Below, one piece after another: positions 18,061 through 56,609 of a DNA stretch of 64,000 nt. How positions within the stretch are numbered: position 1 is the first letter of the stretch; each line of letters opens with the position of its first letter. The translations under genes were made by a program, and so were the position numbers. A model generated the notes under the pieces. That model saw nothing but the letters and a program-made list of their open reading frames with translations, was not told where the DNA came from and did no database searches. The DNA is from Alitta virens (taxonomy: Eukaryota; Annelida; Polychaeta; Phyllodocida; Nereididae). The stretch is from positions 26,543,227 through 26,607,226 of the forward strand of contig OW028576.1 of assembly GCA_932294295.1 (NCBI GenBank). The letters are read 5' to 3'.

Positions 18061-19593
18061 AGTACCAAGATAGGGCCAAAGGAATGCCGGCGCCTCAGGC
18101 TATGAGATCAAAGGATCCCTGCAGGTGCCGCAGGCTACCAGCCTCTGATCCTGCAGGGCCCTCCGGCTATAAGCATTTATGTCCAAACGCTGACAGGTGT
18201 TAAGGCCCTCAGGCGTTAGTGGTTGAGATGACGTTCAGTATACGTCCAGCATCTCCAAGAAAACCCCCAGGCCAAATGTAATGATGTACAAATAAATATT
18301 TAAAGATGGGTTGTTAAGAGTGAATTGCTTTTTCATTCAATTCAATTCAATTCAATTCAATTCAATTCAATTCAATTATGATAACCAAATACTGTTATTA
18401 AACAATGATGACAGGCTTGTGCCAGTGTATTTTTCATTGTTTAAATGGAAAAGTTGTCCAAAGCTCACTTGTAAGGTGCATTTGTTTTTTTTGACTTGTG
18501 TGTCTTTATAATTCTTTATTTATTTATTTATTCTCAAGTACACACATGCTATATTAACCAGTAGTGCTGAGTTAGCAATGACATTCACCGCAAAGCTCAG
18601 AGGAATGGTATTAGTGTTTTGTAAGCATAATTCTTTGTATGCTATATTATCCAGTATGTGTTGAGTCAGCAGCAGCATTCATCAGAATGAAGACTGACTC
18701 CTGCTTGTCAAACACCTCAGGCACTCAGTGATAACCAGTTATCATTGGCTGACTTTTAGCGTATGCCTCAGAGCACTATACACTGCCAATTGTACACCTG
18801 GTGGTCAAGAGCCTCATTGCTTTATTTTCATTGTCTTAGTCCAGCCCTGATATACTAAAAGCATATTTAATAAATGCAATTAAGAGTAGTTATGAAAACT
18901 TTTGGACACCTGGTTTTTTGACAGCACCCTCATTGTCTTGTGCTCATTGTCATAGTTTATCAATGGTATACTAAAAAATACAAAGCAACTCATTGTCTTA
19001 GTTTAACCAATGGCACACTAAAAATAAAATTAAATCAAGTTTAATAAATACCCCAAAAGTCGCTTATGAAAGATTTATTTCTAATATCAGAACATGCACA
19101 CTTTCAAGCAGTTAATACACAATAAATAAAAAACCAAAAACTATCATTTCATACTGTTAATCGATAAAAATCATTGTGTAATAGTAAAATAAAAAAGCAA
19201 TATTAGATAACATAGCAAAGACATTAGGCATAAACTACTACACATGCAACTCATATCACCAAAAAAAAAACTTATCACTTATAATATGCTACACACAACT
19301 CAAAAGTCACTTATGAAAAGATTTATTATATCAGAACATGCACACTTTCAAGCAGTTAATACACAATAAATAAAAAACCAAAAAAAAACTATTATTTCAT
19401 GCTGTTAATTGATAAAAATTATTGTGTAATAGTAAAATAAAAAGCAATATTAGATAACATAGCAAAGCCATTAACCATAAACTACTATACATGCAACTCA
19501 GATCACCTAAAAAAACTTATCACTTATAATATGCTACACATGCAAGCACATTCATTCTGTTTTAAAAAACAATGAAAACTTTTACACAGTTAA
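18061..19593 (+). repeat. Left terminal inverted repeat (about 1.5 kb)
   Basis: Inverted copy of 55090-56609, alignable by eye along its whole length with scattered substitutions and small indels. In order it contains: four copies of an 11-bp word (CCTCAGGCTAT and variants) at 18093, 18128, 18160 and 18207; a (TTCAA)n run at 18335-18377; and an internal tandem duplication of about 240 bp (about 19055-19300 and 19300-19545). The inner boundary is near the word ttacacagttaat. No protein is encoded; the short open frame at 18311-18511 only reads through the TTCAA run. Confidence 0.93.
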
Positions 19594-19900
19594 TCTTAAC
19601 ATGTGTCAACATCAATCCAAAAAATCCTCAGGAACACATGAACTAGCTGTTAATTAAAATAAAAGCAAATCACTTATTAAAAAAGAAAAAAGATAATAAT
19701 AATAAATAAATAAAAATAAAAGAAACAGACAGCACCAGTCACAGTCTCTGCTAATGGAATTCAGGGGTTAGAAAATTAGGTTTTTTCTTTTTATTACTAT
19801 TTTTCCTTAAACAAAAGTTGTTATGTGAATTTATTTGTTGTTCTATTATCATCAGAGTGTGGTTTGATTTTCTTTTTTTAATTCAGTGATGTGGCACAGT
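19594..19900. other. Non-coding interior next to the left inverted repeat
   Basis: A-rich, low-complexity sequence; no gene seen. Confidence 0.5.
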
Positions 19901-21737
19901 ATATTGTATAGTATCATCAATACTTTGCATAGTGTTGGCTGTCACTGTCATGTGCACATTAACTTGTTCACTGTGGTGTTTCTGTCTTCCTCCTATTGAA
20001 CAATAATGCCTACACAAAGCACACAAGCAGACCAGTTACATCTAAGAACTTATGCCAGCCAATCACAGCTGAATATGATAACAGGCTTTGATTGGCTTGT
20101 AGCACAGCCAAATATGACAGGCTTCCATTCAGAGCAGAATATGTCAACTTTAAGCTGCACTGTCCGTCAAATCGTCAATTTCTGAGACTCCATAAAATAG
20201 CTGAAAATAACCTTTATTAATCAAGGCACACTCCATTTGGGTGAACTAATGTTTTTATCAGACATTAATTTAAAAAAAAATAAAAATCTTACATTGAGAG
20301 AAAATCCAGACCAAAACATTGGAAACACAATGGATATGACATCATCAACCAATGTTCAGTATTGTGATGTTATCATTGGGTTTGTTTACATATTGAGTTT
20401 TTGATGGCATGAAAAACTCTATTTATATTATTTATTGTACCTTAAAGTTTAATTCCTGTGTACAAAGGAACATGAAATGGCAAAAATAGCATGGGACAAG
20501 AAGGTAGTATTGGCTTATATTATTATTTGCCTATGCTTAATCTTGAGACATAGTAACTTTAACTTAAGCAGCATTCTGAGTGCTCAAAACATCGGAAAAT
20601 GTATTCCTTGACTTGAAATATATATTGTGCATTTACACTGGACATATTTTGTTAAGCTAGCAAAATAACAGGTTCTTCTATATACCTTTTTGTGATGAAA
20701 ATATACAAAATAGTTTGAGTTATTGGATGAAATTTAAGAAACAGGTTACACCAAACAATTAAAGGCATGTCATAATATGTAAGATGTAAAATTAACAAAA
20801 TCATATTTTGCTTTTAAAATTTTAACAATAATAGGAGTATTCATATCACATATAAAATGAAATTTAATTTCTTAAAATTAACGGGGGAATAATAATGCAA
20901 GGTGTAAGTTATACTTGTTTGAGGCAAAAATGAACTGATCAGAGTGATATGATAAGCAAGTTTGTTACTGAACATTTACTTTTTTTATAAAGGGAAATAC
21001 GTTATAAACCAGCAGTTCTATGTAATTTTTGATGCAGAGCTAATTTAAACATAATCAGACCACATGTCATGTTGACAAATTAACAAAACTGAAAATTTAA
21101 TTAAATTAAAAGTGTAAGTTATGTCAGAGTATACTGCTAATGTTGGTATGGTAAAAGGTGTCCTAAAAATGGATTTTTTATTTGTTTTGATTCATCAAAG
21201 TGTTGGAATTGATGTGAGCAACCCTATAGAGTCACACTGCAGAATTATACTTGCAAAATAATAACGCTGAAAAAAGGAAAGGGTGAATGTTTGTACTTTG
21301 CATGTATACAATGCTTTAATGTTACATACTCATCAGCAGTACTGTGTAAAAAGCTAGATCAAAAGCACTGTAAAAAAATATAATTGAATGTACCAGAAAA
21401 GTGAAGTACTTTGGTGCTAGTATTGATATCAGTTGAATTCAAAGGTGAGAAAATTATAAAAAAATGTTATAAATATTTTCCCTTTAACAAAAATTGCGAT
21501 GTGGATCAATATTTTGCATAGTGTTTGCTGTCACTCTGTAATGTGCACATTAACTTGTTCACTGTGGTGTTTCTGGCTTCCTCCTATTGAACAATTCAGG
21601 CTTTGATTGGCTTGTAGCACAGCCAAATATGATAACAGGCTTCTATTGCTTATGGCAGAGCAGAATATGATAACATGGTATGTGACTAAATGACTGTATA
21701 GTTCATTACAATATCAACAGGTGTGAATGCTCAGCCT

Positions 21738-21824
21738 ATGAGTGCAAAATTAAAAAGAATAATTGAGGAGCAACAAATGCCCAAGGCACAGTTAGTTGAA
21801 TGCATCACTACCCTTTGTTGGTGA
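21738..21824 (+). CDS. Tiny duplicated open frame, unknown (copy 1)
   Basis: This encodes 28 residues beginning MSAKLKRIIEEQQMPKAQL and ending before TGA. The paralogous copy at 22785-22871 has the same length and stop position and begins MSAKLQRLIAEQQMPEAKL. Differences between them are mostly conservative. It may be the remains of an exon or of a helical N-terminus; I do not recognise a family. Confidence 0.25.
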   Translation: MSAKLKRIIEEQQMPKAQLVECITTLCW

Positions 21825-22784
21825 TAAGAAGCCTGTGTGTATATTTAATGAGTGATATGATAATCACTTAAAAAGTAAAGTTAGAAAATTTTAATCAAGA
21901 TGAAAACATAGCTTTTCTTTAATCAACAGTGCAATGTCAACTTAAGCAGCAATCTCAGAGCACAAAACATCAGAAAATGTACGCTTTTACTGAGAAAATA
22001 TATTGTGCATTTACACTGGACAGATTTTGTTAAGCAAGCAAAAATAATTTAGTTTCATTATGTACCTTTTGTAAAGAAAATATACAAAAGTGTTACTGAA
22101 TGAAATTCAAGACACATTTAACACCAAACAATTACAGCCATGTCATAATATGTAAGATATAAAATTATACCAGCAGCTCAATATATTTTTTCATGAAGCT
22201 AAGCTAAAACATACACAGACCTCATGTTATGTTGACAAATAAAACCCAGGTAAAAAATAAATAAAATAAAAAACTTTGGAATTTCACATTTAACATCCAT
22301 GTGTGTATTCAAATATAGAGTATCAGTGGTAATTTTAGAGACCAGATAGAATTAATTCCATAAAGTGACATACATTGTAGTTTGAAATGTAAATATTTAT
22401 TTTTTCATGTAAAGCTATGATAAAACACTGAAAATAAAAAGAAAATCTCAATTTTTTTTTAAACCAGCAATATGGCACAGTTTATTGTATATTATCATCA
22501 ATATTTTGCATAGTGTTTACAGTCACTCTGCAATGTGCACATTAACTTGTACACTGTGGTGTTTCTGGCTTCCTCCTATTGAACAATTCTGAGACTAGTA
22601 ACATCTAAGAACTTATGCCATCCCATCACAACTTAATATGATAACAGGCTTTGATTGGCTTTTAGCACAGCCAAATATGATAACAGGTTCTATTGCTTAT
22701 GGCAGAGCAGAACATGATAACATGGCATGCGACTGAATGACTGTATAGTTCATTACAATATCAAAAGGTGTGCATGCTCAGCCT

Positions 22785-22871
22785 ATGAGTGCAAAATTAC
22801 AAAGATTAATTGCGGAGCAACAAATGCCCGAGGCAAAGTTAGTTGAATGCATCACTGCCCTTTGTTGCTGA
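22785..22871 (+). CDS. Tiny duplicated open frame, unknown (copy 2)
   Basis: Second copy of the 28-codon frame inside the ~1-kb duplicated block. Start and stop are preserved relative to the copy at 21738, despite divergence of the surrounding sequence. Confidence 0.25.
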   Translation: MSAKLQRLIAEQQMPEAKLVECITALCC

Positions 22872-23400
22872 TAAGAAGCCTGCGTGTATATTTAATGAGT
22901 GATATGATAATCACTTAAAAAGATAAAGTTAGAAAATCTTTAATCAAGATGAAAACACAGCTTTTCTTAAATCAACAGTGCAATGTCAACTTAAGCAGCA
23001 ATCTTAGAGCACAAAACATCAGAAAATGTACGCTTTGACTGAGAAAACATATGTACCTTTTGTAAAGAAAATATACAAAAGTGTTACTGAATGAAATTCA
23101 AGACATATTTAACACCAAACAATTACAGCTATGTCATAATAAGTAAGATATAAAATTATACCAGCAGCATGTTATGTTAACAAATTAAACCCAGGTAAAA
23201 AATAATTAAAATAAAAAAACTTTGGAATTTCACATTTAACATCCATGTGTATATTCAAATATCAGTGGTAATTTTAAAGACTAGATAGAATTAATTCCAT
23301 AAAGTGACATAAATTGTAGTTTGTAATGCAAACATTTATTTTCTCAAGTAAAGCTATGATAAAACACTGAAAATAAAAATAAAATCTCAATTATGTCAGA

Positions 23401-24515
23401 ATATACTGCTTCTGTTGAAATGTTTAAGGATGCCCTAAAATTTAATTTTTTGTATTTCATCAAATTGCTGGAATGGAAGTGAACAACCATTCACAAGTCA
23501 CACTACATATACTTGCATAATAATAACACTAAAAATCAGGAATATCCCATACTTTGTTAGTAAATAACAGGTAAGCTGTGATGCTGAGCATCCTTGTTTC
23601 TTGGTCATGCCTCAGTGATTCCCTTGCATTTGACCCCTGGTCAGAACAATGAACTCCTGATGTCACATCATGCATATGTAATTAGCTACTGCCTAAAATG
23701 TAGGCTATTCTGGCTTGAGAATGTCATCTTAAATTGACTTACCTAGGATTCAGGAAATTAGTATTTCAGGGTATATCCTTTCATGGGACTTACAAAACTG
23801 AAAAAGTGCAAATTTCATTTTAGAGCACATTTAAGTCCTAAAAGCTCATCAATCACAAGCCTCCTTTTTCCCTCCAGTTTGATCAACTCACAGTGTTAGA
23901 GACTCGTTGGTGCTGTTGTGCAAGGAATGTGCATGCTTGAAGCAAGGTGAGTGGCTAGCTACCATTTATATATGGATTATTTGTCCTTTTATATTATAAA
24001 TTGAGGCAGATTAATATTTAAACCCTCTTTGTAACAAGTTGCTCAACCCTTAGTTCGGTAACACCCCACAGCGCATGTGTTCCAAACTAAGGATGACAGT
24101 GTCACCTACACCAACTGCAATTCTCTTGTTTTCTGATGCCTCAGCATTTGCATTTGCCCTTTCATTTTGCCAGGATAATAACTTTGATGTGACAGATTAT
24201 GCTGTTTTCGACTTCAGTGTCATTGCTGTCTTTGAGGAGATAGATGTTGCACACCAAATTGCAGTTGCTGTCCATGCTCAGTTTGCCCAGCCTGCCATTT
24301 AAATTCTGCTAAAATCGGGTGATTATTGTGTTGTGCAAACACAGAAGCCAAAATGTTCAATTGATACAAATAATATAGTACTGTGCTTAAATTTGTAGAT
24401 ACCAAGCAACAAGGAGACGCATAAGGCATTGCCCAGATCTACGGATTGACCATGATGGCTGTAAGTGTATTATCATGTCTAATGTTTCATAGTAAATATT
24501 GAATATTTCAAATAT
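23401..24515. other. Spacer between duplicated blocks and satellite
   Basis: No convincing gene. Open frames on both strands around 24,075-24,430 overlap each other and show no domain. Confidence 0.5.
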
Positions 24516-24519
24516 GTTT

Positions 24520-27500
24520 TGAGCGCTGTGAGTTGACGGTGTCTGTACATTGTGGGTATCTTAAGAAGGGCATACAAGCATAATATAGTCTGTGCATTAT
24601 GGGGTTAAAGCGTTGTGAGTTGATCGTGTCTGTGCCTTGTGGGTATATGTAGACCAGCACAGCAAAGCATTATAATGCCATCTGTTCATTATGGGGTTAA
24701 AGTTTTGTGAGATGATGTTGTCTATGAATGGTGGGTATCTCTAGATGTGCATACAAGCAAAATATTATAACACAGTCTGTGCATTATGGGGTTAAAGTGT
24801 TGTGAGATGATGGTGTCTGTGCCTTGTGGGCATCTCTAGAACAGCACAGCAGCAAAGCATTATAATGCAGTCTGTGCATTATGGGGTTAAGCCATTGTAG
24901 AATGATGGTGTCTGTGCCTTGTGGGTATCTCTAGATGAGCACAGCAGCAAAGCAGTATAATGCAGTCTGTGCATTATGGGGTTAAAGCATTGTGAGATGA
25001 TGGTGTCTGAGCCTTGTGGGTATCTCTAGAAATCAGACTAGTAAAGTATTATAATGCAGTCTGCATAATGGGGCTAAAGCTATGTGAGATGATGGTGTCT
25101 GTACCTTGTGGGTATCTCTAGAAGAGCACAGCAGCAAAGTATTATAAGGCAGTCTGTGCATTATGGGGTTAAAGTGTTGTGAGATGATGGTGTCTGTGCC
25201 TTGTGGGTATCTCTAGACGAGCACAGCAGCAAAGTATTATAATGCAGTCTGTGCATTATGGGGTTAAAGCATTGTGAGATGATGGTGTCTGAGCCTTGTG
25301 GGTATCTCTAGAAATCAGACTAGTAAAGTATTATAATGCAGTCTGCATAATGGGGCTAAAGCTATGTGAGATGATGGTGTCTGTACCTTGTGGGTATCTC
25401 TAGAAGAGCACAGCAGCAAAGTATTATAAGGCAGTCTGTGCATTATGGGGTTAAAGTGTTGTGAGATGATGGTGTCTGTGCCTTGTGGGTATCTCTAGAA
25501 ATTCAGACTAGTAAAGTATTATAATACAGTCTGCATTATGGGGCTAAAGCTATGTGAGATGATGGTGTCTGTGCCTTGTGGGCATCTCTAGAACAGCACA
25601 GCAGCAAAGCATTGTAAAGCAGTCTGTGCATTATGGGGTTCAAGCATTGTGAGATGATGGTGTCTGTGCCTTGTGGGTATCTCTAGAAATTCAGACTAGT
25701 AAAGTATTATAATACAGTCTGTGCATTATGGAGCTAAAGCTATGTGAGATGATGGTGTCTGTACCTTGTGGGTATCTCTAGAAGAGCACAGCAGCAAAGT
25801 ATTATAAGGCAAACTGCATTATGGGGTTAAAGTGTTGTGAGATGATGGTGTCTGTGCCTTGTGGGTATCTCTAGACGAGCACAGCAGCAAAGTATTATAA
25901 TGCAGTCTGTGCATTATGGGGTTAAAGTGTTGTGAGATGATGGTGTCTGTGCCTTGTGGGTATCTCTAGACGAGCACAGCAGCAAAGTATTATAATGCAG
26001 TCTGTGCATTATGGGGTTAAAGTGTTGTGAGATGATGGTGTCTGTGCCTTGTGGGTATCTCTAGACGAGCACAGCAGCAAAGTATTATAATGCAGTCTGT
26101 GCATTATGGGGTTAAAGTGTTGTGAGATGATGGTGTCTGTGCCTTGTGGGTATCTCTAGACGAGCACAGCAGCAAAGTATTATAATGCAGTCTGTGCATT
26201 ATGGGGTTAAAGTGTTGTGAGATGATGGTGTCTGTGCCTTGTGGGTATCTCTAGACGAGCACAGCAGCAAAGTATTATAATGCAGTCTGTGCATTATGGG
26301 GTTAAAGTGTTGTGAGATGATGGTGTCTGTGCCTTGTGGGTATCTCTAGACGAGCACAGCAGCAAAGTATTATAATGCAGTCTGTGCATTATGGGGTTAA
26401 AGTTTTGTGAGATGATGGTGTCTGTGCCTTGTGGGTATCTCTAGACGAGCACAGCAGCAAAGTATTATAATGCAGTCTGTGCATTATGGGGTTAATGTGT
26501 TGTGAGATGATGGTGTCTGTGCCTTGTGGGTATCTCTAGACGAGCACAGCAGCAAAGTATTATAATGCAGTCTGTGCATTATGGGGTTAAAGTGTTGTGA
26601 GATGATGGTGTCTGTGCCTTGTGGGTATCTCTAGACGAGCACAGCAGCAAAGTATTATAAGGCAAACTGTGCATTATGGGGTTAAAGTGTTGTGAGATGA
26701 TGGTGTCTGTGCCTTGTGGGTATCTCTAGACGAGCACAGCAGCAAAGTATTATAATGCAGTCTGTGCATCATGGGGTTAAAGTGTTGTGAGATGATGGTG
26801 TCTGTGCCTTGTGGGTATCTCTAGAAATTCAGACTAGTAAAGTATATTAATACAGTCTGCATTATGGGGCTAAAGCTATGTGAGATGATGGTGTCTGGGC
26901 CTTGTGGGTATCTCTAGAAATCAGACTAGTAAAGTATTATAATACAGTCTGCATTATGGGGCTAAAGCTATGTGAGATGATGGTGTCTGTACCTTGTGGG
27001 TATCTCTAGAAGAGCACAGCAGCAAAGTATTATAAGGCAAACTGTGCATTATGGGGTTAAAGTGTTGTGAGATGATGGTGTCTGTACCTTTTGGGTATCT
27101 CTAGAAGAACACAGCAGCAAAGTATTATAAGGCAAACTGTGCATTATGGGGTTAAAGTGTTGTGAGATGATGGTGTCTGTACCTTGTGGGTATCTCTAGA
27201 AGAGCACAGCAGCAAAGCATTATAATGCAGTCTGTGCATTATGGGGCTAAAGCTATGTGAGATGATGGTGCCTGTACCTTTTGGGTATCTCTAGAAGAGC
27301 ACAGCAGCAAAGTATTATAAGACAAACTGTGCATTATGGGGTTAAAGTGTTGTGAGATGATGGTGTCTGTGCCTTGTGGGTATCTCTAGACGAGCACAGC
27401 AGCAAAGTATTATAATGCAGTCTGTGCATTATGGGGTTAAAGTGTTGTGAGATGATGGTGTCTGTGCCTTGTGGGTATCTCTAGAAGAGCACAGCAGCAA

Positions 27501-29560
27501 AGCATTATAATGCAGTCTGTGCATTATGGGGTTAAAGCATTGTGAGATTATGGTGTCTGTGCCTTGTGGGTATCTCTAGCAATTCAGACTAGTTAAGTAT
27601 TATAATACAGTCTGCATTATGGGGCTAAAGCTATGTGAGAGGATGGTGTCTGTACCTTTTGGGTATCTCTAGAAGAGCACAGCAGCAAAGTATTATAAGG
27701 CAAACTGTGCATTATGGGGTAAAAGTGTTGTGAGATGATGGTGTCTGTGCCTTGCGGGTATCTCTAGAAATTCAGACTAGTAAAGTATATTAATACAGTC
27801 TGCATTATGGGGCAAAAGCTATGTGAGATGATGGTGTCTGTGCCTTGTGGGTATCTCTAGAAATCAGACTAGTAAAGTATTATAATACAGTCTGCATTAT
27901 GGGGCTAAAGCTATGTGAGATGATGGTGTCTGTACCTTGTGGGTATCTCTAGAAGAACACAGCAGCAAAGTATTATAAGGCAAACTGTGCATTATGGGGT
28001 TAAAGTGTTGTGAGATGATGGTGTCTGTACCTTGTGGGTATCTCTAGACGAGCACAGCAGCAAAGCATTATAATGCAGTCTGTGCATTATGGGAAGTTGT
28101 GAGATGCTGGTGTCTGTACCTTGTGGGTATCTCTAGAAGTGCAGAGTAGAAGTAATAAGCATAATATACAGTTTCCAAAATATAGGGATGAAGTGCTGTT
28201 AGCTGATGTTGTCTGTGCTTTATGGGTATGTCTAGCAGTGCATACAAGCAAAGTATTATAATGCAGTCTGTGCATTATGGGGTTAAAGTGTTGTGAGATG
28301 ATGGTGTCTGGGCCTTGTGGGTATCTCTAGAAGAGCACAGCAGCAAGGCCTTATAATGCAATCTGTGCATTATGGGAAGTTGTGAGATGCTGATGTCTGT
28401 ACCTTGTGGGTATCTCTAGAAATGCATGCAAGCAAGGTATTATAACGAAGTCTGTGCATTGTGGGGTTAGAGCGTTGTGAGATGATGGTGTCTGTGCCTT
28501 GTGGGTATCTCTAGAAATTCAGAATAGTAAAGTATTATAATACAGTCTGTGCATGATGGGGCTAAAGCTATGTGAGATGATTGTGTCTGTGCCTTGTGGG
28601 TATATCTAGACGAGCACAGCAGCAAAGCATTATAATGCAGTCTGTGCATTATGGGGTTAAACCGTTGTGAGATGATGGTGTCTGTGCCTTGTGGGTATCT
28701 TTAGAAATTCAGACTAGTGAAGTATTATAATACAGTCTGTGCATTATGGGGCTAAAGCTATGTGAGATGATTGTGTCTGTGCCTTGTGGGTATCTTTAGA
28801 AATTCAGACTAGTAAAGTATTATAATACAGTCTGTGCATTATGGGGCTAAAGCTATGTGAGATGATTGTGTCTGTGCCTTGTGGGTATATCTAGACGAGC
28901 ACAGCAGCAAAGCATTATAATGCAATCTGTGCATTATGGGAAGTTGTGAGATGCTGATGTCTGTACCTTGTGGGTATCTCTAGAAATGCATGCAAGCAAG
29001 GTATTATAACGAAGTCTGTGCATTGTGGGGTTAGAGCGTTGTGAGATGATGGTGTCTGTGCCTTGTGGGTATCTTTAGAAATTCAGACTAGTAAAGTATT
29101 ATAATACAGTCTGTGCATTATGGGGCTAAAGCTATGTGAGATGATTGTGTCTGTGCCTTGTGGGTATATCTAGACGAGCACAGCAGCAAAGCATTATAAT
29201 GCCATCTGTTTATTATGGGGTTAAAGTTTTGTGAGATGATGTTGTCTATGACTGGTGGGTATCTCTAGATGTGCATACAAGCAAAATTTTATAACACAGT
29301 CTGTGCATTATGGGGTTAAAGTGTTGTGAGATGATGGTGTCTGTGCCTTGTGGGTATATCTAGCAATTCAGACTAGTAAAGTATTATAATACAGTCAGTG
29401 CATTATGGGGCTAAAGCTATGTGAGATGATTATGTCTGTGCCTTGTGAGTATCGCTAGAAGTGCATAAAAGCAAAGTATTATAATGCAGTATGTGCATTG
29501 TAGGGTTAAAGTGTTTTGAGATGATGGTGTCTGTAAGTATCTCTAGAAGAGCAGATAGTC
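24520..29560. repeat. Satellite array of 95-bp units (about 53 copies)
   Basis: The period is 95 bp, measured between successive gttaaagtgttgtgag words at 25921 and 26016. The unit contains gatgatggtgtctgtgcc, tatctctaga and a small palindrome (ATAATGCA, gtctg, TGCATTAT). At least two unit types alternate: one with cgagcacagcagcaaag and one with attcagactagtaaag. The block at about 25,830-26,800 is nearly homogeneous, while both ends are diverged. Minus-strand open frames inside it are by-products. Confidence 0.97.
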
Positions 29561-30570: not shown

Positions 30571-30575
30571 ACAGG

Positions 30576-38327: not shown

Positions 38328-38359
<32 letters not shown>

Positions 38360-39958: not shown

Positions 39959-39959
39959 T

Positions 39960-43551: not shown

Positions 43552-43555
43552 ACCG

Positions 43556-45265: not shown

Positions 45266-45269
45266 TTAA

Positions 45270-46030: not shown

Positions 46031-46222
46031 AGCGGTGCGGGCCAGTCGCCCTCCTTTCGAGTGTCAGGAGAGGTACGGACAGTGCCGGCTTCTAGTGCAG
46101 GAGGAGGGCACCTCGAGGAAGGGGGGCCGCCGGTTCGCCATGGAAATACAATGACCAGCGGCTGGCCCACTCGACAAGATAGAGAGCGACATCGAGCTAG
46201 AGATCTGAGTCAGTCCGCCTCG

Positions 46223-46908: not shown

Positions 46909-46910
46909 GG

Positions 46911-48176
46911 ATGGGGCTCCCCCGAGATATAGACGCCTATTTATCACGTAGATTTTACAATCACAGGACCCCTGGTAGCTTCACCAGTGCATCAAAGTTG
47001 CACTCTGTCATAAAGAGCGAAGGACGCTATGACATAAGTCTGAGTAGAATTGAAGACTGGGCCCAGTCACAGGACATTGTCACTTTGCACAAGTCAGCTC
47101 GCGAAAAGCCTCGAAAGTATAGACGAGTCATAGCCCCTGGTATGAACCACTTGTGGGACTGCGATCTACTTGTGCTGACAGGTGAAAGGTTCAAGAGAGC
47201 TAATGAAGGGTTTACTTACATCATGGTAACTATAGATGTCTTCTCCAGATACTGTAGGGCCCGAGCAGTCAAAAGCAAAAGTGCCAAACACATGGAACAA
47301 GCCTTCCAGGAAATATTTAATACTACTACTACTACCACTACTACTACTACTGCTGCTGCTACTGCTACTACAGCTGCAGGTACAGGTGCAGCCACAGTGT
47401 CAGTCCCTGCATCAGACGCAGAAGGCACAGGAATGCCAAAGTTCATACGCACTGATAGGGGGACAGAATTCACAAACTCTCGTGTCAGCGATTTACTTAA
47501 AGCAAGGGGAGTGAGTAACATCTTCACTAATACAGAAACCAAAGCGAACTACGCCGAAGCGGCGATTAAAGGACTTAAAAAGAGACTGTTCCAGTACTTC
47601 CAATACACCAACAGCTACAGCTATCTGGATGAACTCCAGGATATAGTAGACTCGTACAACAGAACTATTCTGACAGTGTCAATGAGGAAATGAACAGGGA
47701 ATTTGGGACTACCAATACATCACTCAGCAAAATACGAAGGACTTAGCTCGTGCCTTCAAGAGTGCCATTTCCACAGCCAGGAACAAGAGAAGAAATCCAT
47801 ACAAATTCACACTAGGACAGAGGGTCAGAGCGTCATACCATCGCAAAGCGAATTTTTTTCGCTCCTACGACGAGCAGTTTACAGGCGAAGTATTCACCAT
47901 CAGAGCTAGGAAATTCTCAGACAGAGTAGCCATTTACTACCTCCTAGACTACCAGGGTGATGATGTTGATGGCCCTTTTTACGTAAACGAGCTGACACCT
48001 GTGAAATTTGACCCTGACGCTTTCTTTAAGGTAGAAAAAGTGATCAAGAAACGCATGAGGAGTGACGATGCTGAAGAAAGCCTGGTTAAATACCAATCCT
48101 GGCCTAGTAAATATAACCAGTGGCTACTTAGCTCTAACATCAAGACACTGAAGGCGAAGAGACAGAGAAAAAAATA
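46911..48176 (+). pseudogene. Retroviral-type integrase, Polinton class, one frameshift
   Basis: DNA integrase that would join the element ends to host DNA. The first frame (to 47693) has an N-terminal helical segment (GRYDISLSRIEDWAQSQD), then the catalytic core with Asp85 (LWDCDLL), Asp182 (RTDRGTEF) and Glu216 (NYAEAAIKG); Asp and Glu are 33 residues apart by my count. A Thr/Ala run coded by (act)n is inserted between the first and second Asp. After a frame change near 47,660-47,690 the family continues to 48176 with an SH3-like segment (TLGQRVRASYHRKANFF) and a chromodomain-like end (SWPSKYNQWL) followed by a basic tail. The overall family is that of the transposon-derived protein F54H12.3 of Caenorhabditis and Polinton integrases. 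The frameshift probably disables it. Confidence 0.88.
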
Positions 48177-48243
48177 AATAAAATAAATAAATGAAAACAA
48201 AGCAAAGGCCTTTGGAGGGGATCTTAACTAGAAAGGAACCAAA

Positions 48244-49095
48244 ATGTATCTTTATCTGGCTAGTGACTTGACACCAGAAATAAACCCTAGAAACACAGCA
48301 GGGAAGTTTACTGTACAGCTGCCCGAGTCATTTACGAGACCCTCAAGAGCTGAACCGAGGGGGCGGTGTTACTTGGGGCTGATCGAGATAGCCATGCCGC
48401 CAGTGGGTGCAGGTGCCAACAAATGGGATGTCGTCTATGTAACATGCCCTCATGTAGAGGGAGTTGCGATGGGTGTCACCTACAGGCCGGTGCTCAGGTC
48501 CATAGCTCTGGGAGAAATAAGACGGCACAACTACACAAGTTTCACTTCAGTACTCTACACGCCCCTGAGAGTGAAGGACGTGAGACATATTTCCATTGAA
48601 CTGAGAGACTCGAGCTGGAACCTGCTACCAGAGCTCGCCGAAGAAACTAGACATTCCACCAAGTGTACTCTGGAACTAATATGGAGGCGAGATACAAATC
48701 CCTATCAGCAATGGATGCAGCACCCTGGATAGAGCATTTTAAAAAAAACTGCTGGTCACACGAGCATACTGTCGTCGCAGCCGAGGCCTGTAGTGATCAA
48801 AAAGCCTCGTAGCAGCAGCGACGCCCATGGAGAGAAAGCCAATGTCAGTTTACCCCTTACCATTGTGTCTCCAGTAGGTCAGTCTAACGAAATGGCCTAG
48901 GCTGATTTACGCATGGAAAGCGATAAAAGGGTAGGGGCTGGCTCAGCTGGCTCAGTCGGCAGCTCAGCTACGTCAGGGACACAGAGATCCAGGAAGAGAA
49001 AGCAACCTCCTCACACTCCTCAGAGCAGAGTGACTAGCGGTGCTCCAAAGAATAAGAAGACAAAAATCACTAGGATCAAGGACATTTTCAGTTAA
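48244..49095 (+). CDS. Putative minor capsid protein with basic tail, two in-frame TAG
   Basis: The frame 48244-48732 (162 residues) starts MYLYLASDLTPEINPRNTAG and continues TVQLPESFTRP and YLGLIEIAMPP. This is beta-rich and like proteins encoded next to Polinton-type capsid genes, so I infer a penton-like minor capsid role. The same frame runs on past TAG (48730-48732) and TAG (48898-48900) to a Ser/Lys/Arg-rich end (KKPRSSSD, then RSRKRKQPP and KNKKTKITRI) at 49095. The tail could bind DNA. Either two C-to-T changes of Gln codons broke one 280-odd residue gene, or the basic part (ATG 48913) is a separate small gene, or the stops are read through. The stop at 49093-49095 lies one base before the capsid ATG. 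Confidence 0.6.
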
Positions 49096-49096
49096 C

Positions 49097-50492
49097 ATGG
49101 CGGCCGGTGAAAAAGTACTGGAATCAATAGACCTGGCATACGATGACACTCTTAATCTGTTCAGTTTACCTCTCAGCAACCTAGGAGTGACGGACATTAA
49201 ATATTTAACGCATAAGTCCATCAATCAATTTTCGTCCGAGGGCGATGCGAAATTCCATGTCCCCGGTGCAGGAACAGCCTACATAGACCTGTCTAGTGTT
49301 TACATAAAAACAAGGGTGAGAATAGTCACAGAAGATGGATCCAGCCTCCCCGAAAGGACCAGCAAAAAGAAAAAAAACATCAACACCTGTAGATGCAGCT
49401 GCAGCTGCCGAGGAAGCAGAGAGTGAGACTGAAGGGTCTTGGAGTGTGGGTGTGGTCAATAACCTGGCGCACGCTCTCTGGGACCAGGTAGAGGTGCGAC
49501 TTAACGACAGAGTGGTCACGGGTGGACAGACTGGCTACAGCTACAAAGCATTAATAAACACACTGCTGGGAGAGGGCGATCTCAATGACTCCGAGCTAGA
49601 ATGCTCCTTGTTCCAGAAGGACACAGCACGATGTATGGACGATGTGAGTCTGATGTATGGAGGCAATCAGGGATTTCGAAAAAGGGCAGCTCTCATGAGT
49701 GGCAGCAAAACGGTGGAGCTATTGTGCAAAGTAGACGTCGATGTCTTTCAAGTCAACAAGTTGCTTTTAAATGGAGTGGCCATGGACATGACTCTTACAC
49801 CGACTTCGAACAGCTTCAGACTGCTGTCATCGAGCTTGGTTAGGAGAGACTACAAGCTTGAGATTAAGGACATTACGCTTATTCTCAAGCATGTTACACC
49901 TTCAAATCTAGTACTACTCGGACATCAAAAAGTCATGGAAGAGGAGATCTCTCAGGCAAAATATTTCTACACCAGAGAAGAATTAAGGAAATTTAATTTG
50001 GCCGAGGACACCTCCTCATATTACATCGAGGATGTGTACAATGGACGAATACCTAGCAAGATAGTGATGGGCTTTGTGTCAGGTGAATCTATGAGTGGCA
50101 GCCTGGGGAAAAATCCATACAATTTCAGGCACTATGACGTCACTTACGTCAATGTGAGTCTGTCGGGCATGCCAACGCCATCGGGTCCTCTAAGTATAGA
50201 CTTCGACGAAGGCAAGTACATACACTGCTATTCGGAACTTTACCGAGGAAAGACCAACTTCAGCGGCGAAGCCCGGATCACCAGAGAGGAATACAAAGGA
50301 GGCTACAGTCTGTTTGTCATAGACTTGGCACCTCAGAACTACCGTGACTTCTACCCTGTCACACGAGATGGCTGTGTGAGAATAGAACTCAGATTTAAGT
50401 CGCCCTTACCAGAATCATCTGTCATGATAACAAAAGTGACATACCCGGGCTTATTCCAGATTGACTATGCTCGCAACATCTACCTGACATGA
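49097..50492 (+). CDS. Major capsid protein, double-jelly-roll type, split by a -1 shift
   Basis: Homologue of the hexon-like proteins annotated in invertebrates as F54H12.2-like, which sit beside F54H12.3-like integrases. Frame 1 from ATG 49097 gives SIDLAYDDTLNLFSLPL and YIDLSSVYIKTRVRI. The frame changes by -1 at the A-run at 49370-49378 and then continues to 50492 with VVNNLAHALWDQVEVRLND, KDTARCMDDV, LLGHQKVMEE, NPYNFRHYDVTYVNVSLSG and a final VRIELRFKSPLP. An Ala/Glu/Ser-rich insert follows the shift. Total length would be about 465 residues, ordinary for this family. The shift sits on the slippery heptamer AAAAAAC, so either a one-base indel in the homopolymer or programmed frameshifting explains it. 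The stop overlaps the protease start (ATGA). Confidence 0.85.
49372..49378 (+). promoter_or_regulatory. Canonical -1 slippery heptamer A-AAA-AAC
   Basis: In the upstream capsid frame the codons read AAA AAA AAC, so the heptamer is in the correct register for -1 slippage into the downstream capsid frame. GC-rich self-complementary sequence (gcagctgcagctgc) follows about 20 bases downstream. It may equally be a simple homopolymer indel. Confidence 0.4.
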
Positions 50493-50992
50493 ACACTGAT
50501 CAAATATATAAAATACTGTGGAATGACGTCACGGTATCGTCACGCGTGATGGCTGTCATACCGTGCAATGCTCTGAAATACATCTCAGTCAATACGTACA
50601 CGAGGGGATGCTACATCTTGAATTGTAATGAAAACTCGTACTTACGTGGAGACATCGGGCATTGGATTTTCCTGAGGATTCATAGCTGTGGTAGACGCGA
50701 TGAGGATGCTAATGCTGTTGATGTTGATGTCGGTGATGTGAGGCAAAGACTTGAAGTTTTCGATGCTCAGGGTGCGAAGTGCTATAATGAAGAAATCAAC
50801 ATGTTTATGAGACAATTCGTGTCATGCTCAACCAGTAGAGTACACATTTCCAATGCTAATTGTGGTTTTTACACTCTAGCTTACTTGTATTATAGATGTA
50901 GGAATTTTAAGCCCGAGAGTGTTATAAATATACTTAAAGACATACGGGATGTGAAAGAACACTGTCTGGCTCTATACAGAGACACAGGATAA
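50489..50992 (+). CDS. Adenain-like capsid maturation cysteine protease
   Basis: Protein of 167 residues with the order of a C5-type (adenain) protease: His58 in DIGHWIFLRI, Asp92 in LEVFDAQG, and Cys125 in SNANCGFYTLAYLYYR. Such proteases cleave capsid and core proteins during maturation in adenoviruses and Polintons. The position seven residues before the Cys, where adenovirus proteases carry the oxyanion-hole Gln, is Val118 here, so activity is uncertain. An Asp/Val-rich run (about residues 71-84) separates the His and Asp segments. It is uninterrupted, starts in a 4-base overlap with the capsid stop, and is the last gene of the compact block. Confidence 0.82.
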   Translation: MNTDQIYKILWNDVTVSSRVMAVIPCNALKYISVNTYTRGCYILNCNENSYLRGDIGHWIFLRIHSCGRRDEDANAVDVDVGDVRQRLEVFDAQGAKCYNEEINMFMRQFVSCSTSRVHISNANCGFYTLAYLYYRCRNFKPESVINILKDIRDVKEHCLALYRDTG

Positions 50993-51664
50993 TACATTTG
51001 TATTATTATTATTTACTGTAAATAGATATATAGATATATAGAAATATAGAAATATAGACATATAGTCATATAGACATATGGATATATGACTAGCTTAATA
51101 CTTTTAATGTTATTATTATTATTATTGTTATTATTATTATTTTATTCTTATATGTTATTTGTAAATTTTAGTCAAAAAAAAATGTAACGATGGAGATAAT
51201 ACAATGGTAATAAAATTATATATATATATATATATATTAATATTATTGTTGCAGTTATTATTAATATTACTCTCAACTCAGCTGACTTCATATGACATTG
51301 GTTGCATAGTAATGCACAATAAATGCAATTTACTTAAATTAGTATAGTTCTCTGCCATGGGGCAAGTGGTATTTAGCATTTAAGATATGACTTTCTACTG
51401 CATAGTAATCTCAATTGGATTGGTGCTGAGTCATTAACGCGATATTGATAAAATCGCAATACTCCACCGCATACACGCAATATTACAATAGTTCTCTGCA
51501 TGCCTTCAGCATAAGCGATAATGATAAAATCGCAATACTCAACAGCATGTATGCAATATTACAATAGTTCTCAGCCCACTGACAGCGTGTCAGCGTGCCG
51601 GCATCTTAATGACATGGTAATGAACGATAAATACAATAAGCGAATTTAGCTATAGTTATCATTG

Positions 51665-51699
<35 letters not shown>

Positions 51700-52296
51700 A
51701 AGTCACTTACCTTTTTTAAAAGTGTAGACCTTTCGGTGAGCGATTAGAGGTATAGAGTTCAAAACAATTCCTGGTGTTGCTGCAGCATAGAGAAGAGTCC
51801 TAAGAAGAGCTCATGGAGATGTGATGTGCAGAGTTTTTTTTTTCTTCTTTCAAAGAGCAAAAAACTGGAAGTGATGCTGCTGTCATGATGCACAGGCTTT
51901 TTATATGGTATTTTTGCCCTGGGGCAAACACTGGGGGGTCTGCATGGTGTCTTAAAAGACCACTTTTGCTCAGATGGTCACCTGCCCTGCCCATATGCTT
52001 GACTTACAAGGTCACAGTCAATGTATCATCCATGTCTGTGGGTTCTAGTTGTTGACATTGACTGCGGGGGGCTCATAGTAATACAATCATTGGCCTGATC
52101 TTACCAGCCATCAGTAAATGCATGTGCTTAATTTCAATAATTGAGGGTCAAATGACTCGCTCGCGAGCTGAACTCAACATTTTAACTGAGAGCCTCAGGA
52201 CACCATATCTACAAAGAACCCATTGTCAACTCAATTAAGCTACTTTCAGAGAATTTAACTTTAAAGTACAGCAAAAATAAAAAAATAAAAATTAAT

Positions 52297-52339
<43 letters not shown>

Positions 52340-53114
52340 TTAATGTCATTGTTAAATTCTGTTTTACTTACCAAAGGGTGTAAATTTTGCTGGTACATAG
52401 GTTATGTATCAATTTCTCTTCATCTAGCTACACATGAGTATCTTTAATTAACTAGACTCTTTTTACTTGAGTTTAACACATAGTCCACATGGTTTAATCT
52501 ATCTGTATTAACAGATTCAAGTGCAATAGCTTCTATTAGTGATATAAATATGGTTTGCATACAGAATTTGTAAAAATGTAAGCCGAAAATGAATTGTACT
52601 AATGATGTGTTTGTGCAATCAAAAAGGAATTTCAATACCAGCACATAAAGCATTACTGACAGTGTAATTAAATAATTTAACCTACTCTATATTCAATATG
52701 TACACATTGTTTCTAAGTCACTTTTAGTATGTTCCATATTTAATATATATATATATGTATAGATTAACCTGAGTCACTTTTACCTTGGACAATAGAATTT
52801 ATTGTAGTATATACAGATAAAGCAATAGACCTATTATTAATAGGACTTATAATATTTTCTGGTTTGACATACACCAGCAGTAGTAGCAACAGCAGTGAAG
52901 CTGCAGTGATATATGTGAATATAACTTACATTTCAATTAGATTATACACTCTCTATTGTCTAGGGGCTGGGCATGAGAGTCAGGTCTTTTGTTGTGTTAT
53001 ATAATGGCAGGTTTTACCCCCCACCCCCCTCTGTGATTTGGGGTTTTTTGGCACTGCATGTGACCATAGCTCCTTGAGATACTGAAGAGACAAGACATTT
53101 GGATTGATAGCTAC
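50993..53114. other. Non-coding interior with microsatellites
   Basis: AT-rich runs (ta/tat repeats at 51,020-51,240 and 52,300-52,335) and a (TG)n tract at 51,663-51,698. Two tandem copies of an about 85-bp unit lie at about 51,432-51,575, sharing gataaaatcgcaatactc and gcaatattacaatagttctc. No gene seen. Confidence 0.7.
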
Positions 53115-53827
53115 ATGAGTGAAAACAAAATGATTTGGATCTTGCTGCTTTTTGGCTTGAGTATATGCTCAACAGATGCATGGATTTGCGGAAACGAGGA
53201 CCAGTGCAGGTGTACATCTTCGGGGGACGTTATGTGCACTGCAGATGGAGTTGCACCCTTTTTCATTGATGTCTACCGAAGCGGAAAGAGGCTGACAATC
53301 AAGACGGATCCAGGCTTCTTAGCGACACAATAGGGTTTGACCGGGTGATGGTGATTGGACTTTCCCGTGAGCAATGTTCACGTGTCTCTGCTTCTTTCCC
53401 TTCGATCATGTGCATTATGACGACCACGATATATGCTCATCCTGTGATGAATGCTGGACACGGTTTCCAGACGAGTGAGCCGACTACAGCTGAGCCTCAA
53501 GGAGGAAACACCGATTAGGTGCAGCAGTCACCTGCTGGGTCATTGGATGCGCTGGATGCAGTGATTATATGGACGGCCATATCGGGTGCCATCGGGGCGA
53601 TATTGATGGCTTGCATTCTGGTGAGTCTGGTTAATCTTCATGCTCGCATTAACACTCATGCACGCTGCAATGATCCGCCAATGTTCACAGTGAGCTGCTG
53701 TCTGAAGTGCCTAGCAGTACTGCTATTCCCCCTCCATCTGTGTGCGAGGTGCTTCAAATGTACTACATGCTGCTTGTTTACACTTGATCAGACTGTGAGA
53801 GGCACTTCAACATCTTTCAGAGCCTAA
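53115..53827 (+). pseudogene. Cys-rich type I membrane protein of the element, interrupted
   Basis: ATG 53115 opens a signal peptide (MIWILLLFGLSICSTDAW) and a Cys-rich start (NEDQCRCTSSGDVMC). Coding-like sequence continues after a frame change near 53,325 (TIGFDRVMVIGLSREQC), reaches a TAG at 53516-53518, and goes on in the same frame with a membrane helix (AISGAIGAILMACILVSLV) and a Cys-rich tail (CLKCLAVLLF, CARCFKCTTCC). The layout suggests a surface or envelope-like protein of the element, or a captured host membrane protein. No family is recognised. The two breaks fit decay; an unseen small intron is an alternative for the first one. Confidence 0.5.
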
Positions 53828-54261
53828 ACTAGGTTAGTCACTTGATTTCTGTACCTCTAGACAAGTCATACACCCCCAACAGTATAAAGTATAATTTAGC
53901 GGGCAATAGCCCACATGATGGCTTGGTGTTAAACTAGCCTACTTGTACTTTTACTGTATTGTACATTCTTATATCTTCAATGGCCTGCATGATTCAAGGC
54001 TGTCATTTTGATTATGAATGCTCTATGAACCACCTTTTCTTTGTTTTTATTTTTTGGTTATGCCATGTTATGCTGTGACTGAAAGGCAGTTTCTTTAATG
54101 TTTCACTCATGTGGCACTTCTTGGTGTTGTAACTCAATGTACCTGGAAAAAAACATTCATCCAGCCCATCAGTGGCTATTTAATTTTGTCTTTTGTATGA
54201 CTTTAAATAATGTTCAGTGACTGATTGATTGTTCTTTTCTCTTCAGACGAAAGATTTTATT
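53828..54261. other. Spacer or intron between right-end genes
   Basis: A donor-like ctag-GTTAGT lies just after the membrane gene (about 53,830) and an acceptor-like ttctcttcag ends near 54,246. The two right-end genes may therefore be spliced in one transcript. No coding region between them. Confidence 0.35.
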
Positions 54262-54666
54262 ATGACCTTGGCGTTACGTGTGCTTGTGCGGGTTATTCTG
54301 ATTTATATCTGGAATGTGGACCTTGTACTGGCCTTTGAAAACGCCGATGAGCGCAATTTGTTTTTGGTTATGCTCCTCCGTATGGCCCGCTGGATGATTA
54401 ACTCGATTGAAGCACGTAACCGTGACATCATCAACAACCGCCTCAACCCCGACAACAACAACAACAATGACGGTGACGCCAACAACAATGTCATTAACAA
54501 TGACAGGCCAGGGGCAGCACCCCTACCTCGACGTATGCCCGATGCAGAACAAGCCAGACCTGAACATCGCGCACGCGTCCGCCCCCTCCGCCCTCGGGGT
54601 ATGGCTGGTCTGGACTTGAACAATGTGCTGAACCAGAGGTTAAGAAACCGTAATAATGTTAATTGA
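54262..54666 (+). CDS. Asn-rich protein of the element, unknown function
   Basis: An intact frame of 134 residues. It has a hydrophobic N-terminus (LALRVLVRVILIYIW) that could be a signal peptide or anchor, then FENADERNLFLVMLLRMARW, a run of Asn/Asp coded by (aac)n, and an Arg/Pro-rich end (RRMPDAEQARPEHRARV, RPLRPRGMAGLDLNN). Its GC content is higher than that of the flanks, as for the other cassette genes. It lies about 400 bp inside the right inverted repeat. I do not recognise the family. Confidence 0.5.
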   Translation: MTLALRVLVRVILIYIWNVDLVLAFENADERNLFLVMLLRMARWMINSIEARNRDIINNRLNPDNNNNNDGDANNNVINNDRPGAAPLPRRMPDAEQARPEHRARVRPLRPRGMAGLDLNNVLNQRLRNRNNVN

Positions 54667-55089
54667 TTTGCTTTTATTTTAATTTACAGCTGGTTCATAT
54701 GTTCCTGAGGTTTTTTTCCCCTTTGTTTGGGTTTTTTTTTTTTGGATTGATGTTTACGCATTTTAAGATTTATGTGTTTTTTTTTGTTTTTTGTTTTATA
54801 GTTATCCATTTGGAGATTTCGTGCTTATTTCATTATTTCATTATTTTTATCTGCATGGAAGTGTGAGTGCATGTGAGTGTTGCTGAGGCTGTGATTGGTG
54901 CTGTGTGATTGGTTTATTGGCTGTATTTTTTAATAATTGATTTGCGGTTTCTTTTTATTGCTTTTATGGTTGTTTAGATATAATTATTTTGATTTGGTGC
55001 ATGCTATTTTATGTGCTTTTTTTATTGTCTTTATTTAATATTTTAGTAATTAAAGTTAGGAAAGCATATGGAGTAGAATGTTTTATTCA
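54667..55089. other. T-rich spacer inside the right inverted repeat
   Basis: T-rich low-complexity sequence with no gene. Confidence 0.5.
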
Positions 55090-56609
55090 ATTAACTGGGT
55101 GAAAGTTTTTAAAACAGAATGAATGTACCTACATGTGTAGCATATTATAATTGATTAGTTTTTTAGATGATCTGAGTTGCATGTATAGTAGTTTATGGCT
55201 AATGGCTTTGCTATGTTATCTAATATTGCTTTTTTATTTTACTATTGAACAATAATTTTTATCAATTAACAGCATGAAATGATAGTTTTTTGGGTTTTTT
55301 ATTTATTGTGTATTAACTGCTTGAAAGTGTGCATGTTCTGATATAAGATAAATCTTTTCATAAGTGGCTTTTGAGCTGTGTGTGTAGCATATTACAAGTG
55401 ATAATTATTTTTTTTTTTTTGGTGATATGAGTTGCATGTGTAGTAGTTTATGCTTAATGGCTTCGCTATGCTATCTAATATTGCTTTTTTAATTTACTAT
55501 TACACAATAATTTTTATGGATTAACCGCATTAAATGATATTTTTTTTTTGGTTTTTTATGTATTGTGTATTAACTGCTTGAAAGTGTGCATGTTCTGATA
55601 TTAGAATAAATCTTTCATAAGCGACTTTTTTGGAGTATTTATTAAACTTTTTAATTTTAGTGGGACATTGATTAAACTAAGACAATGAGTAGCTCTGTAT
55701 TTTTTAGTATACTTAGATAAACTATGACAATGAGTACAAGACAATGAGGGTGCTGTCAAAAAAAAACCAGGTGTCCAAAAGTTTTCATGACTACCCTTAA
55801 TTGCATTTATTAAATATGCTTTTAGTATATCAGTGCTGGACTAAGACAATGAAAAATAAAACAATGAGGCTGTTGACCACCAGGTGGACAATTGGCAGTG
55901 TATAGTGCTCTGAGGCATACGCTAAAAGTCAGCCAATGGTAACTGGTCATCACTGAGTGCCTGAGGTGTTTGACAGGCAGGAGCCAGTATTCATTCTGAT
56001 GAATATAGCACACAAAGAATTATGCTTACAAAACACTAATACCATTCCTCTGAGCTTTGCAGTGAATGTCATTGCTAACTCGGCACTACTGGTTAATATA
56101 GCATGTGTGTGTGTGTGTGTGTGTGCTTGAGAATAAATAAATAAATAAAGAATTATAAAGACACACAAGTCAAAAAAACAAAAAACAAATGCACCTTACA
56201 AGTGAGCTTTGGACAACTTTTCCATTTAAACAATGAAAAATACCCTGGCACAAGCCTGTCATCATTGTTTAATAACAGTATTTGGTTATCATAATTGAAT
56301 TGAACTGAATTGAATTGAATTGAATTGAATTGAATGAAAAAGCAATTCACTCTTAACAACCCATCTTTAAATATATATTTGTACATCATTACATTGGGCC
56401 TGGGGGTTTTCTGGGAGATGCTGGACGTATACTGAACGTCATCTCAACCACTATCGCCTGAGGGCCTTAACACCTGTCAGCGTTTGGACATAAACGCTTA
56501 TAGCCTGAGGGCACTGCAGGATCAGAGGCTGGTAGCCTGCGGCACCTGCAGGGATCCTTTGATCTCATAGCCTGAGGCGCCGGTATTCCTTTGGCGCTAT
56601 TTTGGTACT
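55090..56609 (-). repeat. Right terminal inverted repeat (about 1.5 kb)
   Basis: Inverted partner of 18061-19593, including the duplicated inner block of about 240 bp, the TTCAA run (56,297-56,335 as ttgaa), the four CCTCAGGCTAT-type words and the terminal GGTACT. The scattered differences from the left copy are clearly more numerous than those between the LTRs of the nested retrotransposon. Confidence 0.93.

Follow-up and report, generated by a model that had tools for sequence, protein, structure and literature searches.

A Polinton insertion with right-type ends on both sides in Alitta virens, probably a hybrid between a palindromic derivative and a full-length element

INTRODUCTION

The replication mode of Polintons, also called Mavericks, has largely been inferred. 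Among adenoviruses, symmetric recombinants (SYREC, Ad12) have non-viral palindromic DNA in the middle and a copy of one viral end at each terminus, and the FB foldback transposons have long, internally repetitive inverted arms. Intact vertebrate Mavericks are described as 12.7 to 24.6 kb long, with terminal inverted repeats (TIRs) of 46 to 1,447 bp and 6-bp target duplications; the same source reports Polinton particles as not yet observed despite the encoded capsid genes (PMC8097293). In the literature searched, which covered the titles and abstract openings of the top matches, no palindromic or two-right-ended Polinton was found.

The window analyzed here is a 64,000-nucleotide stretch of the Alitta virens genome (contig OW028576.1). 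The element that it contains resembles Polintons in its chromodomain integrase, double jelly-roll (DJR) capsid protein, TIRs, and 6-bp duplication, and carries a candidate adenain-like protease (a weak match); PolB and an A32-like ATPase are carried by a sibling on C13. Unlike described Polintons, the window copy possesses two right-type ends, a nested block, and a left arm without recognizable genes, and lacks the PolB/ATPase half.

RESULTS

Termini and target duplication

The window locus is a single insertion of a Polinton, a virus-like DNA transposon, with right-type ends on both sides, and displays the inverted termini and 6-bp target duplication of the Polinton/Maverick type. A reading made earlier from the sequence alone had recognized inverted repeats of about 1.5 kb, which are real (18048-19568 versus 56622-55106, 90.5% identity). 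It had placed the ends too far inward, however: the true termini are 8 bp outside the positions first given, at 18053 and 56617 (ACTACKTAAGTACC), and the near-identical flanks that it took for a duplication (TACTTA/TACGTA) are part of the repeat. The true duplication is a perfect TATATG that directly abuts both right-type tips, a match with a chance probability of about 4e-4 given the base composition. The boundary features are as follows.

18047..18052, no strand: TATATG target-site duplication, left copy, identical to 56618-56623
18053..19676, minus strand: left tip, an inverted right-type Polinton end; nearest relatives at C11:21619865 and C3:29130511
55106..56617, plus strand: right tip, a right-type end, matching the one at C2:51733885 at 99.2%
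56618..56623, no strand: TATATG target-site duplication, right copy

The starts of such ends were compared at 30 loci and could be located in 27. Twenty-four open with ACTACGTA, among them the right end of the window element with both of its duplicates, and one end counted two times; the remaining three are the left end of the window element and the duplicates of that left end. The left tip is right-type from its first base, with 94 to 95% identity to right ends versus 82% to the left end of the C13 sibling (119 bp). In a tree of ends, it clusters with the ends at L031 and L033 (support, 1.000), separate from the right tip, and the inverted repeats of the window are therefore not sister copies. 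The same tree led to rejection of the idea that two right ends of one kind had diverged by age alone. The left half is an inverted end of right type that belongs to a different subfamily; it adjoins a repeat arm, denoted F, without recognizable genes. The same junction between left tip and arm was found at C11 and C3 with different flanks, indicating that the left arm was mobile in that form.

A nested insertion within arm F

The length of 38.5 kb first given for the element is inflated. Positions 23850 to 44008 are a nested insertion with its own 6-bp duplication, so that the Polinton shell measures only about 18.4 kb. The L061 copy is continuous from 23849 to 44009 without this block; in a palindromic element on C1 (see below), arm F runs straight from 23849 to 44009.

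19677..23849, no strand: arm F, outer part; both C1 palindrome arms match it at 97%, the C1 match beginning at 19317
23844..23849, no strand: GCTCAT, 6-bp duplication of the nested block, left copy (right copy, 44009-44014)
23850..44008, no strand: nested block within arm F (repeat G, repeat H, and an LTR-type element); lacking in L061
23850..34693, no strand: repeat G with a 95-bp satellite; right boundary provisional
24580..29534, no strand: array of the 95-bp satellite, 52.6 copies, within G
34694..39129, no strand: repeat H with tetranucleotide arrays; right boundary approximate
39130..43551, no strand: LTR-type element with 829-bp direct end repeats 99.8% alike and the duplication ACCG
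44009..46029, no strand: arm F, inner part; 98% to the C1 palindrome over 44009-45822, the inner 200 bp in pieces

The components of the block are found elsewhere in the genome: pieces of repeat G have 98 to 99% copies at C8, C4:32.4, C7, and C11, and the first 2.6 kb of repeat H has 26 near-full-length dispersed matches (95 to 99%). The satellites sit within repeat G and were accordingly rejected as the DNA that replaced the left half. A replaced left half, one of the two options in the sequence-only reading, is broadly correct, but satellites are not what replaced it, the replacing DNA being the inverted right-type end plus arm F. The window locus as a whole is segmentally duplicated and rearranged, with duplicates spanning about 88 and 96 kb. 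The duplicate at C4:24.44 contains the inner junctions of the element at 99%, including the junction at 46030 at 99.4%, and has an empty site in place of the LTR-type element.

The capsid half belongs to a full-length Polinton family

The right 10.6 kb of the element represents the capsid half found in a 22-kb Polinton family of the same genome.

46030..56617, plus strand: capsid half of a full-length Polinton, matching the C13 copy at 95-97%
46905..48177, plus strand: integrase (rve plus chromodomain), split over two frames; matches to PF00665 and a chromodomain
48232..48732, plus strand: putative minor capsid protein, by position in the cassette only
49034..50492, plus strand: DJR major capsid protein, split over two frames
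50465..50992, plus strand: adenain-like protease (weak fold match)
53070..53827, plus strand: pieces of a protein encoded by a single 256-aa frame in the C13 copy

The integrase and capsid genes recognized previously are real, albeit each is broken into two frames. The integrase matches PF00665 (E = 2.3e-11) and a chromodomain (E = 6.2e-7). The major capsid protein (MCP) has a predicted DJR fold: its AlphaFold model (mean pLDDT, 83) retrieved in Foldseek the PBCV-1 capsid proteins as top matches (E down to 5.6e-10) and also those of mavirus and Sputnik, with Pfam giving a DJR-like match at E = 0.012 only. For the protease, the top PDB match in a fold search is adenovirus 2 proteinase (1nln; probability 1.00, TM 0.49, a weak E of 5e-3), with no PDB match at E ≤ 0.001 and no significant match in Pfam; H66, E97, D100, and C133, which we take to be the catalytic set, are invariant across 8 sequences. 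The sole Pfam match of the putative minor capsid protein is a weak one to Spike_JR2 (E = 0.13).

The earlier remark that PolB and the ATPase are missing also holds. Searches with five proteins of the sibling copy (tblastn, E ≤ 0.01) detected no remnant of either in the window, including a degraded PolB in the left half, or in the C4:24.44 duplicate, so the shell lacked or lost both. The sibling at C13:13267183-13289293 (22.1 kb), the one sibling opened end to end, shares the right half of the window element at 95 to 97% and contains an open 1511-aa PolB frame (PF03175, E = 1.2e-37) and an open A32-like ATPase frame (Pox_A32, E = 2.1e-5), within the target duplication AATACA. The similarity between the two ends of this sibling is limited to about 119 bp, at 84%. 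The genome contains at least 106 MCP matches at ≥82% and at least four further A-type end pairs spaced 22.4 kb apart, known by their ends alone. An unusual lineage, as first proposed, is hard to reconcile with these counts and with the gene content of the sibling. A complete copy encoding PolB and the ATPase, named beforehand as the sign of a simple deletion, exists for the right end; the left end differs from that of the sibling, and the window element is therefore no simple deletion.

A palindromic element with Polinton right ends

The locus C1:49887953-49908652 is a 20.7-kb mirror-image element with Polinton right-type tips and the 6-bp duplication GATAGG. Its tips are homologous to those of the window family (71 to 74 of 115 alignment columns identical; alignment scores of 57 to 62 versus best scores of 18 to 28 in 500 shuffles each). 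The arms are identical over the outer 1348 bp, a single mismatch was found in 386 bp beside the central loop of about 24 bp, and the mirror point (49898302.5) is the midpoint of the termini. The element is palindromic in all parts read, with the same tip on both sides. The tip was classed as a right-type end from the position of the capsid gene: of 38 tip ends typed, drawn from 42 listed matches, 22 have an MCP match 0 to 12 kb inward, and both C1 tips belong to the other 16. Coding capacity in arm F was considered and rejected: none of the four frames examined, namely all three frames of >100 aa from L061/L062 (E ≤ 0.1) and frame 44316-44801 in the window's own arm, matches Pfam.

Arm F forms inverted pairs at seven more loci, none flanked by an A- or C-type tip among the tip matches listed; a palindrome with Polinton tips is established at one locus only, C1:49.9. 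F is thus possibly an unrelated palindromic repeat, and may have been captured by Polinton ends.

The C1 element, with right-type tips on both sides, fits the plan of the adenovirus symmetric recombinants, and in the window element, too, both ends are of right type. Unlike those recombinants, the window and C1 copies are chromosomal and are bounded by target duplications; furthermore, the window copy is organized as a heterodimer instead of a palindrome. Foldback-type transposons, as described for Galileo (PMC3573991), also have long inverted arms with internal repetition, whereas the C1 element ends in Polinton right tips and has a 6-bp duplication.

DISCUSSION

The reading that we favor, at a probability of roughly two in three, is that the window element combines two sources: one arm of a palindromic Polinton derivative with a duplicated right end, and the capsid half of a full-length Polinton to which that arm was joined. 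The element lacks the PolB/ATPase half and contains a 20.2-kb nested block. Fold-back (snap-back) copying of a displaced single strand during protein-primed replication, or a similar inverted duplication in that process, would generate the palindromes. The chimera would then arise through a template switch or end joining at 46029/46030, and both palindromes and chimera would be replicated and integrated in trans by the PolB and integrase of full-length Polintons; we infer this supply of proteins in trans. Almost no microhomology is seen where the two parts meet at 46029/46030, leaving rearrangement after integration as a minor possibility.

In a different history, an ordinary full-length Polinton inserted at this site, lost its PolB/ATPase half, and acquired its left end of right type at a later stage, through gene conversion or ectopic recombination, before repeats piled in. 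The membership of the right half in a full-length family, the segmental duplication and rearrangement of the locus, and the demonstrated nested insertions are all compatible with this history; we nonetheless consider it unlikely, given the perfect 6-bp duplication directly outside both right-type tips and the tip-arm junctions at C11 and C3, whose other flanks mark the arm as mobile in that form. Alternatively, a palindromic-arm element and a Polinton could have inserted separately, been truncated, and been brought together in inverted orientation. The placement of the tips in different clades and the illegitimate appearance of the inner junction at 46030 would agree with two insertions, which are quite improbable because the flanks would then match by chance, at about 4e-4 and at the expected position on both sides.

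The two other explanations are far weaker. A distinct Polinton lineage of about 38 kb, dependent on another element for replication and packaging, would account for the lack of PolB and ATPase in the window and the C4:24.44 duplicate, but 20.2 kb of that length is the nested block, the locus duplicates extend over about 88 and 96 kb, and the right half belongs to the ordinary full-length family; such a lineage is very unlikely. Long inverted repeats and satellites assemble poorly, yet an assembly artifact is hardly credible: in the C4:24.44 duplicate, the inner junctions recur at 99% and the site of the LTR-type insertion is empty, and the C1 palindrome has different flanks, with a matching duplication on its two sides.

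Beyond this locus, we tentatively propose that Polintons in this genome may spawn giant palindromic satellites, with two right ends, a mirror-image arm, and no genes in the parts read, which would be copied by the protein-primed polymerase of the full-length element, pasted by its integrase, and able to recombine back, the window element being one such hybrid. A palindrome of 20.7 kb that ends in Polinton right tips and is bordered by a perfect duplication is what linear protein-primed replication with fold-back should leave behind, and also what would be expected of defective genomes carried by a helper. Judged by sequence only, it would suggest that nothing beyond right-type ends is needed in cis and that Polintons are themselves parasitized.

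Ends and target site of the element

The two ends of the Polinton-type insertion carry an inverted repeat of 1.5 kb with 90.5% identity between the copies (left tip, 18053-19676; right tip, 55106-56617), as the sequence-only reading had proposed. The genome (671 Mb, 23 contigs, here labeled C1, C2, and so on; the window is C4:26543227-26607226) was searched with a 990-bp piece of the left copy, yielding at least 49 matches (best 40 of 143 candidates scored). The end could be located at 27 of the 30 loci read, and 24 of these start with ACTACGTA directly before AGTACC, where the left start had been placed earlier; therefore, the true start lies 8 bp outside that point, at 18053. The other terminus is 56617, and a copy of TATATG flanks each end. 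The 24 ends include the element's own right end (L020), its duplicates (L018 and L019), and one end counted twice (L034/L038); the remaining three are the left end of the locus and its duplicates, bearing ACTACTTA or ATTACTTA. Duplications of 6 bp are also found in intact vertebrate Mavericks (PMC8097293).

A nested block within the element

The earlier size of 38.5 kb includes a nested block, 23850-44008, that accounts for the excess; ∼18.4 kb remain, within the 12.7- to 24.6-kb range given for intact vertebrate Mavericks (PMC8097293). The related arm of an element on C1 (L061) passes directly from the equivalent of 23849 to 44009 (98.9% and 98.1%), and GCTCAT is present at both sides of the block. 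This 6-bp duplication is accompanied by no evident inverted termini (CAATCAC...CGACT). The block contains the following:

Repeat G: pieces of it recur at C8, C4:32.4, C7, and C11 with 98 to 99% identity
Within 24560-29540: 95-bp satellite, inside repeat G
Repeat H: 26 near-full-length dispersed matches, 95 to 99%
39130-43551: LTR-type element with ACCG duplications and an empty site in the C4:24.44 duplicate

The spacing that holds the satellite in copies of G ranges from ∼3.0 kb (C8) to ∼70 kb (C4:24.44).

Segmental duplicates of the locus are found on the same contig. At C4:24.44, identity is 99% for the right flank, the right tip, and the junction at 46030; the left flank is broken, the first 81 bp of the left tip are missing, as are 49353-49661 and 49882-52366, and a longer satellite brings the tip-to-tip length to ∼96 kb. 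The C4:24.63 duplicate (∼88.6 kb) retains the left flank and tip, and C4:26.79-26.81 holds an inverted left part of the locus. The left flank contains two open frames (5103-7961 and 9786-12536) that encode leucine-rich repeats and a TIR domain, the combination known from Toll-like receptors, which makes an animal host probable. Both frames sit in a segmentally duplicated region adjoining the element.

Gene content and the Polinton family

No trace of PolB or ATPase was found by tblastn in the window, upholding the earlier claim, or in the C4:24.44 duplicate. The family itself is of the ordinary kind, which the sequence-only reading had left to a check of other copies. A 22.1-kb sibling, C13:13267183-13289293, also with ACTACGTA tips and with AATACA on both sides, matches 46030-56617 in its right half at 95 to 97% identity; the match stops at 46030, and beyond that point the sibling carries a 1,511-aa PolB frame and a Pox_A32-like ATPase. 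The sibling's own two ends have only ∼119 bp in common, at 84% identity, so that left-type and right-type ends can be distinguished. Four more end pairs, known here by their end spacing, lie 22.4 kb apart (C14:3.44, C6:7.58, C3:10.98, and C1:43.00); a match to the DJR major capsid protein (MCP) is present at three, with none at C6:7.6 among the matches listed.

The MCP frame has at least 106 matches in the genome (best 106 of 1,247 candidates scored, hence a lower bound), every one listed at ≥82% identity and 105 without a stop inside the match. The Polinton load of this genome is thus large and recent. Among the matches listed at ≥95%, MCP is in a single 485-aa frame in 10 of 16. Both the integrase and MCP frames of the window element are broken; its MCP split (49326-49426) recurs, at an A-rich run, in the C13 copy (L054:7791-8183), yet the two copies have different target duplications. 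Among 30 typed ends matching the left copy of the inverted repeat (A-type), 16 have an MCP match 0 to 12 kb inward and 14 have none among the matches listed, 6 of the latter being the window locus's left end or duplicates of that locus. At C9:6418556/6441786, a right-type end is apparently interrupted at its position 106-113 by ∼23 kb, as would follow from insertion of one large element into the tip of another.

The left tip and its arm

Over its first 119 bp, the left tip shares 94 to 95% identity with right-type ends but 82% with the left-type end of C13. In the tree built from right-type ends, the left tip forms a clade with C11:21.62 (L031) and C3:29.13 (L033) (support, 1.000), and the right tip is placed with C2:51.73 (99.2%). 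Inside the tip, window positions 19584-20279 are also matched in pieces by L031, and 19584-20143 by L033, with 93 to 96% identity; the flanks of both loci differ from those of the window. Thus, as read at the near end of each, the combination of tip and arm occurs at three sites.

The adjoining sequence, 19580-23849, has matches at many loci, frequently in inverted pairs (at least 150 matches; best 33 of 2,925 candidates scored). Such pairs of the arm, designated F (19677-23849 plus 44009-46029), occur at eight loci, including C1:49.9, as judged from 52 of 150 listed rows. Pair centers agree within one base for at least two pieces at six of the seven loci where several query pieces were comparable; further pieces are off center by 9 to 340 bp at C6, C7, and C12, and at C4:35.39 three centers spread over 15 bp. 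The scores of the two arms differ by 0 to 2.3% per locus (16 selected piece pairs).

The C1 pair lies in an element with both ends, C1:49887953-49908652 (20.7 kb), with tips ACTACGTGAGCGGCG and GATAGG on both sides. Its arms are identical over the 1,348 bp read on both. The stretch read across the center is symmetric about 49898302.5, halfway between the termini, with a single mismatch over 386 bp and a ∼24-bp loop; this symmetry applies to the parts read, and part of the right arm between 49898700 and 49903031 lies outside them. The C1 tip (C-type) is homologous to the ends of the family described above (71 to 74 of 115 alignment columns identical; scores of 57 to 62 versus at best 18 to 28 in 500 shuffles each). 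It has at least 42 matches (best 40 of 73 candidates scored), giving 38 typed ends after four rows were dropped (two second pieces of one end and two short partial matches). Among the matches listed, MCP lies 0 to 12 kb inward at 22 of the 38; therefore, this tip is the right-type end of another capsid-bearing subfamily. It is found on both sides only at C1:49.9 among the matches listed. At C1:3481036-3502547, this tip and a short, oppositely directed tip match of 84 bp are separated by 21.5 kb, as in an ordinary element that has a long end and a short end.

Origin of the element

A chimera fits best, with a probability of about two in three. In this history, one arm of a palindrome with its right end duplicated (18053-23849 plus 44009-46029) would have joined the capsid half of a full-length Polinton (46030-56617), and the product would have integrated once, with TATATG. 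Against the reading of arm F as a palindromic Polinton derivative, the other seven inverted pairs have no flanking A- or C-type tip among the matches listed. The chimera is also slightly less probable because the C4:24.44 duplicate does not retain the start of the left tip and the match of the protease is weak. An unlikely alternative history is that an ordinary full-length Polinton lost its PolB/ATPase half and later gained a right-type left end by gene conversion or ectopic recombination.

For the chimera, we infer a fold-back step, assistance in trans, and packaging, if any. A palindrome that has one end duplicated is the expected product of fold-back copying of the displaced strand in protein-primed replication, and the palindrome that contributed the arm may have arisen in this way; the nearest parallel would be the symmetric recombinants of adenoviruses.
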